A stretch of 64,000 nucleotides of DNA from a virus, in IMG/VR virus record IMGVR_UViG_3300035670_000009, positions 62,001 to 126,000 of that record. One strand, given 5' to 3'. A program made the position numbers and the translations under genes. The notes under the pieces are model-generated. The model searched no databases. It had not been told where the DNA came from and saw only the letters and a list, made by a program, of their open reading frames with translations. Every line of letters starts with the position of its first letter. Positions within the stretch are counted from its first letter, which is position 1. Below, in pieces: positions 14,210-54,702 of the stretch.

Positions 14210-14233
14210 AGCTATTCCTTGCTGCGCCAGGTT

Positions 14234-22886: not shown

Positions 22887-23159
22887 TTACGTGTTCAAAG
22901 CGTCTTTTACGGTTACAGGCCCGTTGGCCAGGCGCGTGTCGAGCCACGCTATTTCGGCAGCAAGCGCCTCGCTGCGTTTAACAAATGGTCCGAGCACGGG
23001 CCCGCCCACGGGCCTGAGATCAGCTGTCCAACCGGCGCCTGATGCCGCAGGCTCGACGTGAGAGGCGCGCCGGATATACACGTCACCAAGCGCACTCAGA
23101 TCAATTGCTTCGTCATAAATTGCCTGAATCGTCCCGTTTGGTCGAACAAACAAGTTCAT
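22887..23159 (-). CDS. Conserved small protein, 90 aa
   Basis: Starts MNLFVRPNGT and contains SHVEP, then PVGGPVLGPFVKRSEALAAE. I recall closely similar short proteins as frequent uncharacterised genes in Planctomycetota; this is memory, not a search. Beta-rich start and one amphipathic helix at the end. ATGA coupling with the beta-helix gene upstream. Confidence 0.65.
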   Translation of the reverse strand: MNLFVRPNGTIQAIYDEAIDLSALGDVYIRRASHVEPAASGAGWTADLRPVGGPVLGPFVKRSEALAAEIAWLDTRLANGPVTVKDALNT

Positions 23160-24175
23160 GTTCGCTCCATGCGCATGATTCGGCGTTGTCGCACAGCCTC
23201 GAGGTTTGGTTCTGGTCGCGCCAATATCGGTCCTCTGCTTGTTGGCGCGGGCGCGGTATTTGGATTGAGCACGCGCTGTACCATGTTGTGAATGTCGGCT
23301 GGGCTGCGCAAAACAAAATCAACAATAGATCGAGTGACAAGACTGTCAAGCGCCGCGCTAACTGTGTCGTCAAATACTACGCAGTACATTCTTGTGTTTA
23401 AAAAAGTGGTCCCGTTGTGCAAGACCCATCGCGGCGTGTTTACATGGGAATTGATAAATAGTCCCATTATGGAGATAAGTGTGGCTTCAACCGGCCCTGG
23501 AAGCTCAATGTTGGTGTTCGTTTGTCGCGCGTGATACTCGTTTGGCACAAACGTTGTAATGTATGAATTTACAATACGCGCGTTACCGTCTGCCAGAACG
23601 TTGGTCAGTTCTGAATTTTCAGCAACAGTTGTACCGCTGATTCCCAAATAGCCGTTACAACGACAATTAAATAGCCGCGCGTTACCGTAAATTCGCGCCC
23701 AAAAATAGGCTTCTGGGCCGACAATATTGGTATTGACAATAATTGCGTTTTGAGAAATTTCTGTGTTGCGAGATACACGAGACGAGCCAAAAACTTTAGC
23801 GTTGCCGCTAACGCGAGCAAAGCCGTTCAACACGCCGTCATCAAAAAGTATCGCATCGCCGCCGAGTTTTGCGTGTTGGTCGACGTGCGCGCGGTCGAAC
23901 ATTTTTGATCGGCCGCAAACATGTCCGCGGCCAGAAACTCGACATCTGTCATGAACGCGCGCAAAGTCATAAACTTGCGCGTTTCGCGTGACGTTTGCAG
24001 TGGGCGCAACCCAGGCTGTGTCGGCTACCCAGCCGCCGCCGTTATCGTGACGATGGGCGAATACGCGCCCTTTGCCGTCTTTAAAATCGTGTTTGGGTGC
24101 GCGCTTTATGCGAACTTTTGGCGGGTTTGCAAAATCGGGCACCATTGGGTCGACGAGTTTATCAACCACGGTCAT
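23156..24175 (-). CDS. Parallel-beta-helix-like repeat protein
   Basis: 339 aa. Residues about 45-200 form short six-residue steps of the type (G/D)-N-A-x-V-x (ARVSGNAKVFGSSRVSRNTE), the signature of left-handed beta helices. In phages such stretches are known from putative transferases and adhesion proteins. The N-terminus is basic (IKRAPKHDFKD) and the C-terminus ends in an Arg-rich tail. Likely structural or a trimeric adhesin-like module; enzymatic activity is not indicated. Confidence 0.7.
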   Translation of the reverse strand: MTVVDKLVDPMVPDFANPPKVRIKRAPKHDFKDGKGRVFAHRHDNGGGWVADTAWVAPTANVTRNAQVYDFARVHDRCRVSGRGHVCGRSKMFDRAHVDQHAKLGGDAILFDDGVLNGFARVSGNAKVFGSSRVSRNTEISQNAIIVNTNIVGPEAYFWARIYGNARLFNCRCNGYLGISGTTVAENSELTNVLADGNARIVNSYITTFVPNEYHARQTNTNIELPGPVEATLISIMGLFINSHVNTPRWVLHNGTTFLNTRMYCVVFDDTVSAALDSLVTRSIVDFVLRSPADIHNMVQRVLNPNTAPAPTSRGPILARPEPNLEAVRQRRIMRMERT

Positions 24176-25496: not shown

Positions 25497-26990
25497 TCAG
25501 TTTGCGCTGGGCGCGACGCGGCGCCGCGAAGTCGCATCGGCGGCTTTGACAGCGGCCTTCTTGAAGTATCCCTTGGTGTCTGCGCTGAGACATCGGCCGT
25601 CGGCCCAAGTGCGCAGGTTGGCGATCGCTTCAGCGTTAGTTACAGCGACCGGCACCACGTTGTGCGAAGCTTCCATGAGCGAGACGTCGAGCAGGGCCGC
25701 CAAACGGCAGCAGCTCTTGATCTCGGCGCCCGTCCAATTGCTGTCATCAGGGCGCGGCTGCGTTTTGTCCAGGCCAAACTTATCCAAGTAAAGGCCCCAG
25801 ATGTATTCGCGGGCTTCCTTGGTCGGGAGGTCCACGAAAAATACACCATCGAAGCGTTCCGCGCGGGTGAACTCAGGCGGGAGCTTACTGGCGTCGTTGC
25901 AGGTGCCGATGAAAAACACGTCGCTCTTGTGGTCATTGAGCCATGTCAGAAACGTGCCGAACAGGCGGGCCGTCACGCCGGAGTCAGTCTGGCCCGAGTT
26001 GCCCACGCCGGAGAGACCTTTTTCGATCTCGTCGGCAAACAGAATGCAGGGGCTCATGGCGTCGACCAGCGCGAGCGCGCGGCGAATATTCGCCTCGCTC
26101 TCGCCCACGAACTTACCCATGAGCGAGCCGAAGTCGAGGACTACCGTCGGACGACCCACTTCGTTGCCGAGTGCCTTGGCAAACTGAGATTTGCCGCAGC
26201 CCGGCGGGGAGAGCAGCAGCACGCCGCGCGGGCGCCGCTCGGGATCAATGGCGCCCTGCCGCTTCATGGCCCGCATACAGAACGTCTTGAGATTGTCGAG
26301 ACCGCCTAGGCCGTCAAACGACGCATCGCCGCGGTAAAGCGAGAGCGTGCCAGCCTTTTCCAGCGTTTGCGCCTTGAGCGACCAGATCACGTCCGGGTGG
26401 AGCGTGTTGTGGCGCACCAGGCTGAGAGCAAACGCATTCTCGGCTTCCAGCCGGGTCATGCCCGACGCGGCGTCGACCACCGACGAGATCTGCTCTTCAG
26501 GCGGCTTTTCGAAGGTGTTCCCCTCTCCGCCAAACAGCTCGTTGGCAATCGTTGTCAGCTGCGCGCGGTCCGGAAGCTCGTGGTGGACGAGTGTAAAAAG
26601 CTTCTCGATCTCGGGCTGCAGCTGCAGCACCGGGCTGAGCACGACGATGTGCTGCCCGATCGCCTTGCCGGTGATGACGCGGTTCTGAAGAACCTGCATC
26701 ACCTCCGGATTAGGCAGATACTTGTGAAAATTCTTGAGCAAAAGCAACTGCGTGCTCTTGGCGCGGGCGTCGGGTGTGTCGAGCCAGCGCAGCGCCTGAA
26801 CAGGACCAGGCGCTGACGTGGCGTTGTGCACACAGAGCTGGCGGTCGAGATCCCAGACTTCGAAACCCCAGTCCCGCTCTTCGCAGAGCCGCTTGATAGT
26901 AGCGACGGCGTCATCCGACTCTTGAGTGTCAACCCAAAGACCGGAGAAACCAGCGCAAACCAATTCTTTGATTTTCTGAGAAAGACTCAT
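25497..26990 (-). CDS. AAA+ ATPase, Ycf46-like
   Basis: 497 aa. The first 230 residues form the less conserved N-terminal region of Ycf46-type ATPases (FSGLWVDTQESDDAVATIKR). Residues about 230-440 form an AAA+ module with Walker A SPPGCGKSQ (about 262-270), Walker B ILFADEIEK (about 319-327), and a sensor/arginine-finger region ending ERFDGVFFVDLP. Followed downstream by DUF2997 and DUF1257 (Ycf35) genes, a known association in cyanobacteria and plastids. Role unknown; probably remodelling or chaperoning of a target by the three-protein module. AAGGAG precedes the ATG. Confidence 0.85.
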   Translation of the reverse strand: MSLSQKIKELVCAGFSGLWVDTQESDDAVATIKRLCEERDWGFEVWDLDRQLCVHNATSAPGPVQALRWLDTPDARAKSTQLLLLKNFHKYLPNPEVMQVLQNRVITGKAIGQHIVVLSPVLQLQPEIEKLFTLVHHELPDRAQLTTIANELFGGEGNTFEKPPEEQISSVVDAASGMTRLEAENAFALSLVRHNTLHPDVIWSLKAQTLEKAGTLSLYRGDASFDGLGGLDNLKTFCMRAMKRQGAIDPERRPRGVLLLSPPGCGKSQFAKALGNEVGRPTVVLDFGSLMGKFVGESEANIRRALALVDAMSPCILFADEIEKGLSGVGNSGQTDSGVTARLFGTFLTWLNDHKSDVFFIGTCNDASKLPPEFTRAERFDGVFFVDLPTKEAREYIWGLYLDKFGLDKTQPRPDDSNWTGAEIKSCCRLAALLDVSLMEASHNVVPVAVTNAEAIANLRTWADGRCLSADTKGYFKKAAVKAADATSRRRVAPSAN

Positions 26991-27004
26991 TGTGGCTCCT
27001 TGCT

Positions 27005-27196
27005 TCAGGCTTGAACGTCGATCTGATTAGCGTCTGTCGCGGCGTAGTACTCGCCTGTAAGCGTTTCGCCCGTCTTAGCGCCGAGCGCCTGTTCTAGAGC
27101 TCGTGTGGCTTCTTGGCACCCGGCGCCTTCAAAGCCGCGGGTTTCAAGCTTGGTCTCACCCTTCGGGTTGACAATGATCTCGATGATCTTGGTCAT
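27005..27196 (-). CDS. DUF2997 protein, 63 aa
   Basis: MTKIIEIIVNPKGETKLETR followed by GFEGAGCQEATRALEQALG is the DUF2997 pattern, a compact beta-beta-alpha protein. It sits between the Ycf46-like ATPase and the DUF1257 gene with short spacers. GGAGG precedes the ATG. A partner or substrate-tag role for the ATPase is inferred from the conserved gene order. Confidence 0.8.
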   Translation of the reverse strand: MTKIIEIIVNPKGETKLETRGFEGAGCQEATRALEQALGAKTGETLTGEYYAATDANQIDVQA

Positions 27197-27201
27197 GTTT
27201 T

Positions 27202-27564
27202 TCAGGCCTCCACAGTAACAGTGAGCTTGATCGAACCATCGGCCATCGTCTCTTCATAAACCGAATGTCCCATCTTGGCGGCCTCAAGTTTGGCCTTCTC
27301 GATGGTGTACGCCTGGAGAAACTGATCGAGCGTGTCCTGCTTGCCCCAATAGCCGTTGTAGTTGTCGTAGTCAACCGCGCCGGTTTCAAGATTGCAGACA
27401 ACCGGATAATTCCAGCCAGGAAGCTTTACACCCAAGCCGGTGCGGTTGACGCTGAACACGCGGAAGTCGCCAAAAGTCGGCTGCTCCCACTTGAGACGCA
27501 GACAGGCAGCGCGCACCGCCATTTCATCGTTAACTTGCGTTTTGATCTGCACAATGTGCGACAT
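27202..27564 (-). CDS. DUF1257 (Ycf35-like) protein, 120 aa
   Basis: Begins MSHIVQIKTQVNDEMAVRAA and continues with the Ycf35 pattern: GWNYPVVCNLETGAVDYDNY, a Trp-Gly-x2-x3-LD-FLQAY helix and a C-terminal beta pair with TMADGSIKLTV. AAGGAG precedes the ATG. Third member of the ATPase module. Confidence 0.85.
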   Translation of the reverse strand: MSHIVQIKTQVNDEMAVRAACLRLKWEQPTFGDFRVFSVNRTGLGVKLPGWNYPVVCNLETGAVDYDNYNGYWGKQDTLDQFLQAYTIEKAKLEAAKMGHSVYEETMADGSIKLTVTVEA

Positions 27565-27570
27565 GAGTTG

Positions 27571-27882
27571 TTACTCCTTGTTAATGGGTCGAGTTTCGCG
27601 ATAGTCGTTGAGCGCGTACTGCGCAATCAGAGCCGGGTCGCCGCAGGGATTGTCGACAAAGGCCCTGAGAATATGGACGATCTCGTCGCGGCTGCAGACG
27701 TCGCCGATAAGCTGCGGTCCTTTGGTCGTGTCCAGAGCGATGGCCATTACGTCTTGGATTGTGACCACCTCGGGAATAGCGAGCACGTCGCCAAAGTTTT
27801 CGCGAATCTGGTCAAGGTACTGCAGCGCGTTTTTCAAGTTGCCAAGGTCTTCTTCGAGCTGTACTGCGTGATAACGGCTCAT
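27571..27882 (-). CDS. Hypothetical protein, 103 aa
   Basis: Starts at ATG 27882 (MSRYHAVQLEEDLGNLKNAL), sharing ATGA with the gene before it. Mostly helical with an acidic character. It precedes the DUF1257 gene and may belong to the ATPase module, but I do not recognise a family. Confidence 0.6.
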   Translation of the reverse strand: MSRYHAVQLEEDLGNLKNALQYLDQIRENFGDVLAIPEVVTIQDVMAIALDTTKGPQLIGDVCSRDEIVHILRAFVDNPCGDPALIAQYALNDYRETRPINKE

Positions 27883-28115
27883 AAAAGTTCTACCTCCGCG
27901 CGGGTCTCGATCCAGATTCGGGCGCCGCAAGACAACGGCGCGGTCATTCGTTGTTTGACCGTGCTTTCGCCTTTGATAGCCACATCTCGTCCAACGTAAC
28001 TCTTGCCCTTCCATTGCACGGTGCAGGCGGGCGCGTCGAGCTGGTTCTTAAAGTTGTGTTTGATAATGTGCTGGTTTACATGAATGCGTTTTATGGTCCC
28101 CGCGGGCATCTTCAT
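27879..28115 (-). CDS. Hypothetical basic protein, 78 aa
   Basis: Begins MKMPAGTIKRIHVNQHIIKH; a beta-rich Lys/Arg protein with two Cys. I chose ATG 28115 because the longer frame (to 28316) runs through GC-rich structured DNA with biased composition. The start codon sits in the 3' arm of the hairpin CATGGCT-ACAC-AGCCATG, so initiation may depend on RNA folding. Confidence 0.6.
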   Translation of the reverse strand: MKMPAGTIKRIHVNQHIIKHNFKNQLDAPACTVQWKGKSYVGRDVAIKGESTVKQRMTAPLSCGARIWIETRAEVELL

Positions 28116-28312
28116 GGCTGTGTAGCCATGACAAGGGCGCAGGGAGCACGCTGTGGGCATAGAACCTCCGTGAGCGGCGCAGCCAGATAACCTGCGCGGC
28201 GGGCTAAAGCGCCCAAATAGAAGCCTGCGGAGCCGGGCCCGGATGGGGCAGCGACGTGCGGTGACACGTCCCGGGACACCGGCTCCGCGAGGCGACAGGA
28301 AGGACGCTTTGC
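28116..28312 (-). ncRNA. Candidate structured RNA or structured 5' leader
   Basis: 197 GC-rich bases without a credible gene. Inverted repeats: GCGGAGCCGG (28227-28236) with CCGGCTCCGC (28279-28288), extended by GCCT/AGGC (28223-28226, 28290-28293). Inside that lie CCCGG (28238-28242) with CCGGG (28271-28275) and hairpin GACGTG-CGGTGA-CACGTC (28253-28270). Further left, GCGCAGG (28137-28143) pairs with CCTGCGC (28191-28197), and the start-codon hairpin is at 28112-28130. The strand is assumed minus from the flanking genes; the pairs would form on either strand. Confidence 0.5.
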
Positions 28313-29032
28313 TCAACCCGCTGGATTGAACAGCTTGGCGTATGCGTCAAGCAGGTTCTTGGCCTGCTCCAAACCGCCGTGAGTTTTCACGAACGACGCC
28401 GCCGCCTCGAGCGCCGTGTAAGACGGCTCGCTGGCAGCACGCGTGTTTTTCTCAGAAATAGCGCTCACCTTGGCCGCCGAACGCTTAGACGACTTTTCGG
28501 CATTTTTTGCTGCGGTGGCGGGTTTGTTCGCCTTCGCGGGCTTTGCGCCTGCAGGCTTGTTAAAATCTCGCAGCGTCACCGAAACTTGCGGGGCTGTGAC
28601 CTTCACGCCCTGCTCCTCGAGTGCCGCAATGATGTCGCGCGGACGAATGTTTTCTTCGCCCTGTGCTTTGCGCCGCGTAATCTCGTCACGAATTGCCTCA
28701 GCTTTGGTCTTCTCGGCCATTTTCTTCTGCCTCTTCTTTTGAGCCGCCACGGTAGCGACAGCTCGGTCACGGTCCTCGAGGTCAACAGCGACCTCGATTG
28801 GAGCAGTAGGATCCTGCTCCTCAAGCGCGGAGATATCGTCTTCACTGCCGTCGATGATCTCGCCCGGCTCTTGCGGCACTGGCGCGAACGTCTCGTCGGG
28901 CTCAGGTAAGTCGATTTCGGCCTCCGTGCCTAAGTTCTTCTTCCGTGATTTCTTTGTTTTGGGCGCGGGCCGTTCTTGATTCTCGAACGGCGCGGTCGAA
29001 TCCCAAAGTTTGTCAGCTTCGGTGCTGGGCAT
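28313..29032 (-). CDS. HTH-like protein with acidic N-terminus, 239 aa
   Basis: Residues 1-90 are acidic and Pro-rich with a basic cluster (KTKKSRKKN). Residues about 110-160 form a helical domain (AIRDEITRRKAQG, then RPRDIIAALEEQGVKV and QVSVTLRDFNK) that resembles a winged-helix or HTH module frequent in planctomycete proteins. A Lys/Ala linker leads to a C-terminal helix pair (FVKTHGGLEQAKNLLDAYAK). The next gene has the same two modules. Probably a DNA-binding or nucleoid-type protein; inference from motif and charge. Confidence 0.65.
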   Translation of the reverse strand: MPSTEADKLWDSTAPFENQERPAPKTKKSRKKNLGTEAEIDLPEPDETFAPVPQEPGEIIDGSEDDISALEEQDPTAPIEVAVDLEDRDRAVATVAAQKKRQKKMAEKTKAEAIRDEITRRKAQGEENIRPRDIIAALEEQGVKVTAPQVSVTLRDFNKPAGAKPAKANKPATAAKNAEKSSKRSAAKVSAISEKNTRAASEPSYTALEAAASFVKTHGGLEQAKNLLDAYAKLFNPAG

Positions 29033-29075: not shown

Positions 29076-29465
29076 TCACGATTGAATGAGCGGGTCAACA
29101 ATCTGCTCCAGTTCGCCGAGCATTTTCTTGGCCTGTGCGATACCGCCGCAAGTCTTGGCGAACTGCGCCGCCATGATGAACTGGGCCGCCAGGATTAAGC
29201 TGGCGTTGTTTTTCTTTGGTGGGCAGACGCTGCTACCGTTCTTTGACACCTTGGCGCCGTTGCGTGGAGAAGTTGCGCCGCCGCGACGTCGCTTGTTGAA
29301 CTTGCGCAGCACGACGGACGCCTGGCCACTGGAAATCGTGATTCCCTTCTTTTCCATCTCGGCCTGGATATCGACGGGGCGAACGTTTTTGCCCTCGGCG
29401 CGACATTGGGCAATGAACGCCCGCATGAGGTCGGCCTTAGTCGGGTCATAAGTCTTGAATGCCAC
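29076..29465 (-). CDS. HTH-like protein, paralog, 129 aa
   Basis: GTG start at 29465 with AGGAG seven bases upstream; the longer ATG frame to 29576 has no such site. It contains the HTH-like block (MRAFIAQCRAEGKNVRPVDI, then KKGITISSGQASVVLRKFNK), an RRRGG basic linker and the C-terminal block FAKTCGGIAQAKKMLGEL. Both blocks are shared with the gene at 28313, showing an old duplication. Confidence 0.7.
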   Translation of the reverse strand: MAFKTYDPTKADLMRAFIAQCRAEGKNVRPVDIQAEMEKKGITISSGQASVVLRKFNKRRRGGATSPRNGAKVSKNGSSVCPPKKNNASLILAAQFIMAAQFAKTCGGIAQAKKMLGELEQIVDPLIQS

Positions 29466-29619
29466 GGGTATGCTCCTGATGACAACCGTTGTGGTTTTGA
29501 ACAAAACGCCGCGCACGTGCGCAGCGCAGGCGTGGATGCCACGATAGTGCGTGAAATCCAAAATGCAACGCGCCAAAAAATTCAGCGCGAATTATCAACC
29601 GACCGTGTGAAAACGCGGC

Positions 29620-44973: not shown

Positions 44974-45021
44974 GAAAATCCCTGATAGCAAAGGAAAAAG
45001 GGGGCCGATAGTTACAAACAG

Positions 45022-45078
45022 GGCTGTGTAGCCGGAGCACGCACCATGGGTGAATTGGTGGTGTCCGGCTACACAGCC
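45022..45078. promoter_or_regulatory. Perfect 15-bp inverted repeat
   Basis: GGCTGTGTAGCCGGA (45022-45036) pairs with TCCGGCTACACAGCC (45064-45078) around a 27-base loop. Each arm is itself a small hairpin (GGCT-GTGT-AGCC or GGCT-ACAC-AGCC), so the element can switch between one long stem and two short ones. It fills the gap between two minus-strand genes and has no U-tract, so it is not a simple terminator. Confidence 0.65.
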
Positions 45079-52698: not shown

Positions 52699-54702
52699 TT
52701 AATTGTCACAAATGTAGATCGGCGGCGTTTCGTTAGTTGGCGCGGCGGTCATCGCAAACACGCAACCGCCATTAGAGCAAATTTGACCCGACGGACAACC
52801 AGGTACGGGGCTGGTGCAGTTCGGATCGTTTGCTGTGTCGCAATGGTAGCAGTCGGAACGAATCTGCGGACAGCATCTGCTAGCGCCGACGTCGCCCGCG
52901 CCCGGAAGTGGAATAGTATTGTTTGGGCAACAGTAAAAATCGCCGGTACCGTTACCAACGGCACCGGCATAACCATAACCTGCCGGGCAGCCAGGGCTAG
53001 GCACGCCACTGTTTAGGTCATATGTAACAATAATAGCGCCAGTCGTCGGTATGCATTCTCCGTCAAGACAACACAACGTGTCACAATCAAGACCAGTAAT
53101 GCAACCAGCGCTGCCCGAAGAAGAGCTATCCGAACTGTCTGACGACGACGAAGAAGAGCACGGTTCGCATTCGCCGTTGTTGCAGCATTCTCCGTCTTTA
53201 CAACATGTATCTCCACACACTTGTTCTTCGGGGCAGCACACCCAACCACCCGGCGGTGCGCTGCTCGACGGCGTTGAACTACTCGGCACAGAACTGCTGG
53301 GCGTAGAACTACTTGGCGCAGAGCTGCTAGATGTAGAGCTGTCTGAAGAACTATCAGAGCTGTCTGACGACGAAGAAGAAGAGCACGGCCCGCATTCGCC
53401 GTCATTGCAACATTCACCTTCTTTGCAGCAGGTGTCGCCGCACACTTGTTCTTCGGGGCAGCACACCCAACCGCCCGGCGGCGCGCTGCTCGACGGCGCA
53501 GAACTGCTAGGTACCGAACTGCTAGGTACCGAACTGCTGGGTACCGAACTGCTGGGTGCAGAACTGCTAGGTACCGAACTGCTGGGTGCAGAACTGCTAG
53601 GTACCGAACTGCTAGGTACCGAACTGCTAGGTACCGAACTGCTGGGTACCGAACTGCTGGGTGCAGAACTGCTAGGTACCGAACTGCTGGGTACCGAACT
53701 GCTGGGTGCAGAACTGCTAGGTACCGAACTGCTAGGTACCGAACTGCTGGGTGCAGAGCTACTTGGCGCAGAACTGCTGGGTGCAGAACTGCTGGGTGCA
53801 GAGCTACTTGGCGCAGAGCTACTTGGTGTCGAGCTGCTGGGTGTCGAGCTACTTTGGTCTGAGCTGCTTGCGATCGAGCTGCTGGGTACCGAACTGCTGG
53901 GTGCAGAGCTGCTGGGTGTCGAGCTACTTTGGTCTGAGCTGCTTGCGATCGAGCTGCTGGGTACCGAACTGCTGGGTGCAGAGCTGCTGGGTGTCGAGCT
54001 ACTTTGGTCTGAGCTGCTTGCGATCGAGCTGCTGGGTACCGAACTGCTGGGTGCAGAGCTACTTGGTGTCGAGCTGCTGGGTGTCGAGCTACTTTGGTCT
54101 GAGCTGCTGGGAGTTGAACTGCTTTCGTCTGAACTGCTAACGGAACTGCTAAGTCCTGAACTGCTAACGGAACTGCTAAGTCCTGAACTGCTAGATTCCA
54201 CGCTGCTTGACAAAGAGCTGCTGGAATCCAGGCTGCTAGACAAAGAACTGCTAGATTCCACGCTGCTTGAAATGGAGCTGCTGGAGTCCGAGCTGCTTGA
54301 AATGGAGCTGCTGGAGTCCGAGCTGCTTGAAATGGAGCTGCTGGATTCCGAACTGCTGGATTCTGAACTACTCGAAATAGAGCTGCTGGAGTCCGAGCTG
54401 CTTGAAATGGAGCTGCTGGATTCTGAACTGCTGGAGTCCGAGCTGCTTGAAATGGAGCTGCTGGATTCTGAACTGCTGGATTCTGAACTACTCGAAATAG
54501 AGCTGCTGGATTCTGAACTACTCGAAATAGAGCTGCTGGAGTCCGAGCTGCTTGAAATGGAGCTGCTGGATTCCGAACTGCTGGATTCTGAACTACTCGA
54601 AATAGAGCTGCTGGAAGACGATGACGAACAACAACAGGCTGCGCTGATTGCGAGACTGCCAGCAAACGCTAAAAGCTTATTGTTGTACGTGTAAAGAGGC
54701 AT
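52699..54702 (-). CDS. Serine-rich stalk protein with Cys modules, 667 aa
   Basis: A short N-terminus (YNNKLLAFAGSLAISAACCC) is followed by about 400 residues of SSSESSSSISSSS and then PSSSAPSSSVPSSS repeats. Two near-identical 40-residue Cys modules follow (GGWVCCPEEQVCGDTCCK), then a Cys-rich C-terminal domain. The N-terminal segment resembles a lipoprotein-like or membrane stretch. Pro-Ser repeats suggest a stiff extended rod and Cys modules a disulfide-stabilised tip. Strong candidate acceptor for O-glycosylation. Confidence 0.75.
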   Translation of the reverse strand: MPLYTYNNKLLAFAGSLAISAACCCSSSSSSSSISSSSESSSSESSSSISSSSDSSSSISSSSESSSSISSSSESSSSESSSSISSSSDSSSSESSSSISSSSDSSSSISSSSESSSSESSSSISSSSDSSSSISSSSDSSSSISSSVESSSSLSSSLDSSSSLSSSVESSSSGLSSSVSSSGLSSSVSSSDESSSTPSSSDQSSSTPSSSTPSSSAPSSSVPSSSIASSSDQSSSTPSSSAPSSSVPSSSIASSSDQSSSTPSSSAPSSSVPSSSIASSSDQSSSTPSSSTPSSSAPSSSAPSSSAPSSSAPSSSAPSSSVPSSSVPSSSAPSSSVPSSSVPSSSAPSSSVPSSSVPSSSVPSSSVPSSSAPSSSVPSSSAPSSSVPSSSVPSSSVPSSSAPSSSAPPGGWVCCPEEQVCGDTCCKEGECCNDGECGPCSSSSSSDSSDSSSDSSTSSSSAPSSSTPSSSVPSSSTPSSSAPPGGWVCCPEEQVCGDTCCKDGECCNNGECEPCSSSSSSDSSDSSSSGSAGCITGLDCDTLCCLDGECIPTTGAIIVTYDLNSGVPSPGCPAGYGYAGAVGNGTGDFYCCPNNTIPLPGAGDVGASRCCPQIRSDCYHCDTANDPNCTSPVPGCPSGQICSNGGCVFAMTAAPTNETPPIYICDN
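53490..54120. repeat. Tandem PSSS(A/V) repeat DNA
   Basis: 15-base units encoding Ser-Ser-Ala-Pro-Ser or Ser-Ser-Val-Pro-Ser, about 30 or more copies, with a larger 90-base higher-order unit (about 53830-54090) repeated three times. Very low sequence divergence implies recent expansion. Confidence 0.85.
54190..54610. repeat. Tandem SSSS(E/I/D) repeat DNA
   Basis: Imperfect 15-base units (SSSES, SSSIS, SSSDS) with larger repeat blocks, encoding the N-terminal Ser tract of the stalk protein. Confidence 0.8.

Follow-up and report, generated by a model that had tools for sequence, protein, structure and literature searches.

A conserved, structured non-coding RNA element occupies segment 28161-28312 of the viral DNA analysed here (a stretch of 64,000 nucleotides, termed the window, whose source record is that of a virus of 203,910 bases). 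Its RNA structure is real, and the relevant strand is the minus strand, because the genes that encode the 239-aa, 93-aa, DUF1257-like, DUF2997 and AAA+ proteins all lie on that strand. The spacer keeps its position and is conserved among relatives, with compensatory changes within its stems, a sense-strand bias, a U-rich tail and, at the same place in several relatives, canonical terminators. From these patterns it is read here, at an even chance, as transcription punctuation, in which a terminator-type 3'-end hairpin (P1) of the upstream gene would be followed by leader hairpins (P2 and P3) of the downstream operon.

Results

Gene context and start of the downstream gene

The gene row, entirely on the minus strand, runs from the 239-aa gene through the spacer to the 93-aa gene and then to the DUF1257-like (a weak match), DUF2997 and AAA+ ATPase genes (Table 1). 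A 12-member alignment of the 239-aa protein contains a helix-turn-helix-like conserved block (RPRDIIAAL..GVKVTAPQVSV), and HTH_33 matches weakly, in only two of the 12 members. The AlphaFold model of the 93-aa protein (mean pLDDT 86.6) has no fold match in the PDB, and a DNA-level search of described phages gave no match. The two open reading frames preceding the spacer (29076-29576 and 28313-29032, minus strand) look like paralogues (76% DNA similarity over 54 bases). The DUF1257-like (weak match)/DUF2997/AAA+ ATPase row is phage-borne here (25497-27564, minus strand), and the DUF1257-like protein has relatives in 14 more phage loci. The virus also encodes a tmRNA (tag GAPLALAA) beside tRNA-Lys and tRNA-Thr (G000:C1 about 23131-23661, that is, L062:3131-3661, minus strand), with more tRNAs at L068:5621 and at window position 14233.

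As judged by sequence comparison, the downstream gene is 93 aa long and not 78: the proteins of relatives align from residue 1 (MPxxCP...), with the ATG at 28160; length changes after this start are all in-frame; GGAGG is conserved 4 nt upstream of the ATG; and a C(A/AT)CGGAGG..TCTATG-type sequence precedes the start in relatives. Because the start is at 28160, the hairpin at 28112-28131, which the initial annotation had described as holding the start codon of a 78-residue gene, lies inside coding sequence; the codons of relatives do not form it, so that it is intragenic and not conserved. (The arms, GGCTACACAGCC, of another hairpin at 45022-45078, which is very stable and among the lowest z in the window, have their only other occurrence in the record at 28116-28127.) That the coding sequence of the 93-aa gene might extend across the spacer, where the frame is open in the window, was rejected because an in-frame stop lies three codons upstream in L035 and because spacer lengths among relatives differ by non-multiples of three.

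Table 1. Coordinates of the element, its parts, the flanking genes and recurrent words (window positions unless marked as record positions).
Feature	Position	Strand	Basis or remark
Upstream gene, 239 aa	28313..29032	-	ORF; 12-member alignment; stop codon adjoins spacer
Structured spacer, whole element, 152 bases	28161..28312	-	z; homologous spacer in 33 distinct sequences
P1, long hairpin	28223..28293	-	arms 28279-28293 and 28223-28236; fold; 10 of 16 pairs with two-sided changes
U-rich tail of P1, UUCUAUUU, 6 U of 8	28215..28222	-	sequence; T-rich tails over 41 spacers
P2, short hairpin GGGC-GCUUUA-GCCC	28200..28215	-	28211-28214 with 28201-28204 and a U-G pair; covaries among relatives
P3, hairpin, loop GUUAUCUGG	28175..28199	-	ends 5 nt before Shine-Dalgarno
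Shine-Dalgarno GGAGG	28165..28169	-	conserved with its spacing in seven close sequences
93-aa gene, PHROG 8676	27879..28160	-	ATG corrected to 28158-28160
Hairpin UCAUGGCU-ACAC-AGCCAUGA	28112..28131	-	within codons of 93-aa gene; outside the element
AGATATCT	3102, 6240, 11588, 16168, 19075, 25487, 29698, 33722, 38966, 42709, 47850, 62411		window sites
TTTGCTATYRG	window 44982-44992 (-); record 11898, 15641 (+), 15879, 16634, 16999, 17846, 18971		

Folding strength and architecture

The minus strand of 28112-28312 folds at -101 kcal/mol (z -4.87), the MFE structure coinciding with the centroid, and none of 200 dinucleotide shuffles is as good; the plus strand (-97.3, z -3.30) also lies below all 200 of its shuffles. 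Segment 28158-28315 has a z of -3.9, and a scan of the 64 kb in 150-base windows places the region among the most structured (z -6.2 and -5.1). The dense RNA structure proposed in the initial annotation is borne out: a 14-bp stem with one bulge lies exactly at 28223-28236 with 28279-28293, several further hairpins follow, the segment folds better than every shuffle, and covariation is seen. (Strong predicted folding also arises at 53551-53775, minus strand, from short tandem coding repeats, AGCAGTTCGGTACC....)

P1 is a GC-rich, stable stem-loop directly 3' of the stop at 28313. Beyond its 14-bp, once-bulged outer stem, two single bulged U (28278 and 28276) flank the pair G28277-C28237, followed by an inner stem (28271-28275 with 28238-28242) and an apical stem (28265-28270 with 28253-28258). 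P3 is shared by the window's clade; L011 has it too, its loop resembling that of the clade.

Compensatory change and strand in the close clade

P1, P2 and P3 are common to seven spacers (the window, L003, L005, L006, L009, L010 and L035). Across six hand-registered spacers 94% of cells are paired and 16 of 29 pairs show two-sided changes, against at most 45% and four in slid controls, where the hand registration of the arms leans toward structure. The same three hairpins were recovered independently by RNAalifold on a MAFFT alignment (with a shortened apical loop) and by single-sequence folds. The cleanest case is the comparison of L009 with L010, which are about 95% identical within the 93-aa gene and 73% within the spacer, and whose double changes keep P1, P2 and P3. 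Read as operon-sense RNA, the stems contain 12 G-U pairs versus three C-A (the G-U of the other strand). The P1 core (GG-U-G-U-C // G-C-CC) is kept in six of the seven sequences; outside the helices the sequence is poorly conserved, and the distance to the ribosome-binding site is kept. In each close relative a covariance model detects a single copy, with none elsewhere in the record.

The wider family of spacers

With the upstream (239-aa) protein as query, 54 loci were retrieved; 33 distinct sequences preserve the arrangement of upstream gene, spacer and 93-aa gene, several of them being closely related to one another and hence not independent. For these 33 spacers the mean z is -3.8 in the sense versus -2.5 in the antisense direction, 27 lie below -2, and the sense strand folds more stably than the antisense strand in 30. 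Distant relatives have spacers that cannot be aligned. Throughout the wider family, the stop codon of the upstream gene is followed by a long hairpin. It is still present at eight further loci with a different downstream gene (z -2.3 to -5.4) and, because it is kept where a different gene follows, it belongs to the end of the upstream gene. In five loci with a different downstream gene (L094, L095, L098, L099 and L113) a hairpin with U6-U7, a run typical of intrinsic terminators, stands in the same place, and in the L043 and L142 spacers the start codon closely follows a U7 terminator. T makes up 36% of the 14 bases that follow the long hairpin versus 20% in the spacers (n=41, Wilcoxon p 4e-7), a test in which the automatic choice of P1 erred for a few spacers, among them that of the window, for which a longer pairing was taken.

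The loop of P2

In 13 of the 33 spacers, the stretch from the tail to the ribosome-binding site contains a five-base RYKCU loop on a stem of at least 4 bp, as compared with 0.7 (maximum 4) in shuffles and none on the other strand, for a pattern chosen after the sequences had been inspected. The pattern, by then fixed beforehand, fits four of eight later loci (AUGCU in L102, L113, L125 and L134). In about half of the relatives the P2 loop is AYKCU or close to it; among 12 sequences all five stem pairs change on both sides and the loop is conserved, and elsewhere in the record the motif shows no enrichment. The window's own loop, GCUUUA, is degenerate and departs from the AYKCU pattern. The conservation of the P2 loop among relatives calls for an explanation, either a binding partner or a special structure of the loop.

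Other recurrent words in the record

Among the 8-mers of the record none is as over-represented as the palindrome AGATATCT, frequently in the form AATAGATATCTWTT or AAAGATATCTTT (42 copies versus 1.5 expected). It recurs about every 4.7 kb, more evenly than by chance (CV 0.55 vs 0.97, P 0.0002), and is abundant in relative G003 too, not in G004 or G014; it looks like a dispersed candidate binding site. A second word, TTTGCTATYRG, has eight copies in the record and one in each of six relatives, the reversed control word never occurring. Most copies follow a GC-rich hairpin and a T-rich tract; the copy at 44982 and those in three relatives (G001, G003 and G008) stand just before a gene start. 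The sites of this word are probably terminator-like, perhaps with a promoter.

Discussion

Proposed termination followed by leader hairpins

P1 is regarded as a terminator-type 3'-end element because the downstream genes change, the sense strand is favoured, the tail is U-rich and canonical terminators occupy the same place in relatives. In this scheme P1 and its tail would stop or thin transcription and would protect the 3' end of the RNA of the helix-turn-helix-like gene; the RNA that continues would arise either through read-through or from a start site located between P1 and P2; and P2 together with, in the window's clade, P3 would serve the 93-aa/DUF1257/DUF2997/AAA+ operon as leader hairpins immediately ahead of its ribosome-binding site, where they may act on the stability or translation of the downstream message. 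Termination by the window's P1 in vivo, and its strength, are what we infer from these patterns. The earlier placement of the whole segment in the leader of the DUF1257/DUF2997/AAA+ operon thus stands in half: P2 and P3 fit as leader hairpins, but P1 goes with the end of the upstream gene. Downstream, no sigma-70-like promoter came to light, and expression of the operon would therefore require either read-through or some other promoter. A terminator scan reported nothing here, the scan taking loops of 3-8 only and the loop of P1 being far longer.

Several observations weigh against termination. In the relatives closest to the window (L003, L009 and L035) the U tract is broken up or poor, and it is absent in L007 and L009; the conserved core of P1 is more than a terminator needs; and termination does not account for the conserved loop of P2 or for the fixed distance of P3 to the ribosome-binding site. 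As in intrinsic (Rho-independent) terminators, a GC-rich hairpin comes right after the stop codon, is followed by a U-rich tail, is selected as sense-strand RNA and has canonical forms in relatives; unlike them, the element has a long bulged stem, an interrupted U tract in the window's clade and a conserved U-G-U bulge core, and it continues with further conserved hairpins.

Alternative readings

Those same long, bulged stems, kept while the sequence drifts, and the A/U-rich single-stranded linker between hairpins in GC-rich surroundings would also suit intercistronic processing or insulation, a possible though not likely reading. On this account there is one continuous message, as the location of all genes on one strand and the failure to find a promoter would allow, and P1 would either be cut by RNase III or, once RNase E had cut the A/U-rich linker, shield the upstream 3' end; P2 and P3 would shield the new 5' end of the downstream part. 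Long bulged hairpins between same-strand genes are found as RNase III hairpins in phage T7 early mRNA and as stabilising hairpins in the puf operon. The element shares with these the same-strand intergenic position, the single-stranded linker and a 5' hairpin on the downstream part, but it is single-site per genome and has true U-tract terminators in some relatives. It is these canonical U6-U7 terminators in the same place that favour termination over processing, for which no conserved cleavage-site sequence has been established.

The constancy of the P2 loop on changing stems suggests another, unlikely reading, namely that P2 is a recognition hairpin whose AYKCU pentaloop, perhaps with the boxA-like U-rich linker, is bound by a phage or host protein, for example for antitermination past P1 or for translational control. 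The frequency of the loop (13 of 33 spacers vs 0.7 in shuffles, then four of eight later loci) and its lack of enrichment elsewhere are consistent with this; but the pattern was picked post hoc, the window and about half of the spacers lack it, no candidate binding protein was found, and the 93-aa protein is without a recognisable fold. (Autoregulation by the 93-aa protein was considered and set aside: it has no fold match to an RNA-binding protein.)

A special form of such recognition, and one that is quite unlikely, is nut-like antitermination, in which a terminator hairpin, a U-rich linker and an AYKCU hairpin would be read by a dedicated RNA-binding factor; transcription would then pass into the next operon through antitermination with a new loop type. 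Lambda-type nut sites consist of boxA and a boxB pentaloop hairpin that is bound by the N protein and whose loop is GNRA-like. In the relatives P2 resembles these, being a short hairpin with a conserved pentaloop after a U-rich stretch, but its loop is AYKCU, it sits after a terminator-type hairpin, and the window's loop is degenerate. To our knowledge there is no N-like protein for the element. The comparisons with T7, puf and lambda nut are likenesses only.

That the spacer gives rise to an independent small RNA, by processing or by transcription within it, is very unlikely: the structure is well defined and conserved without coding capacity (as the length differences in non-multiples of three indicate), but conservation outside the helices is poor, the fixed spacing to the ribosome-binding site is cis-like, and Rfam offers no match, a permissive threshold yielding only sub-threshold, chance-level matches where the gathering threshold yielded none.

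An element acting as DNA (promoter or operator dyads, or a cruciform), for which TATNNN-like loops in P3 and the adjoining of AGATATCT to P1 in several relatives might speak, is highly improbable given the G-U bias and the lower sense folding energies; moreover ATAAATATC, the word found in the linker of one clade, does not recur as an upstream motif. As a T4-late-like promoter in the short clade, ATAAATATC was rejected, with 0 to 5 copies per record and, in G014, only one, in the spacer itself.

Two mechanisms raised in the initial annotation find no support. A riboswitch is not supported, there being no Rfam match and, apart from the P2 loop, no core of unpaired bases shared by the relatives, in which conservation is confined to helices and short loops. 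An RNA thermometer is rejected, since the supposed start-codon hairpin is intragenic and ribosome-binding-site accessibility hardly shifts from 10 to 65 C (predicted mean unpaired probability of the Shine-Dalgarno region 0.68 at 10 C and 0.58 at 65 C). Two further pairings were tried and rejected: sequestration of the ribosome-binding site by an upstream CCUUCC is possible in the window, L003 and L035, and by eye is not conserved in L005/L009; and a loop-linker pseudoknot (GAUAAAG/CUUUAUC) can form in L039, L110, L115, L117 and L124 but fails in L041 and L132.

Conclusions

As a terminator with leader hairpins, the element is new yet of a known type; no RNA family library describes it, and no description was found in the literature. 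Uncultured, large (~200-kb) phages here have an RNA element of conserved structure, for whose pairing there is direct evolutionary evidence. Its analysis corrects a gene start and shows how the operons of these phages are separated. The loop of P2, if it is bound by a factor, would moreover provide a handle on the control of gene expression in a group of phages that is almost entirely uncharacterised.
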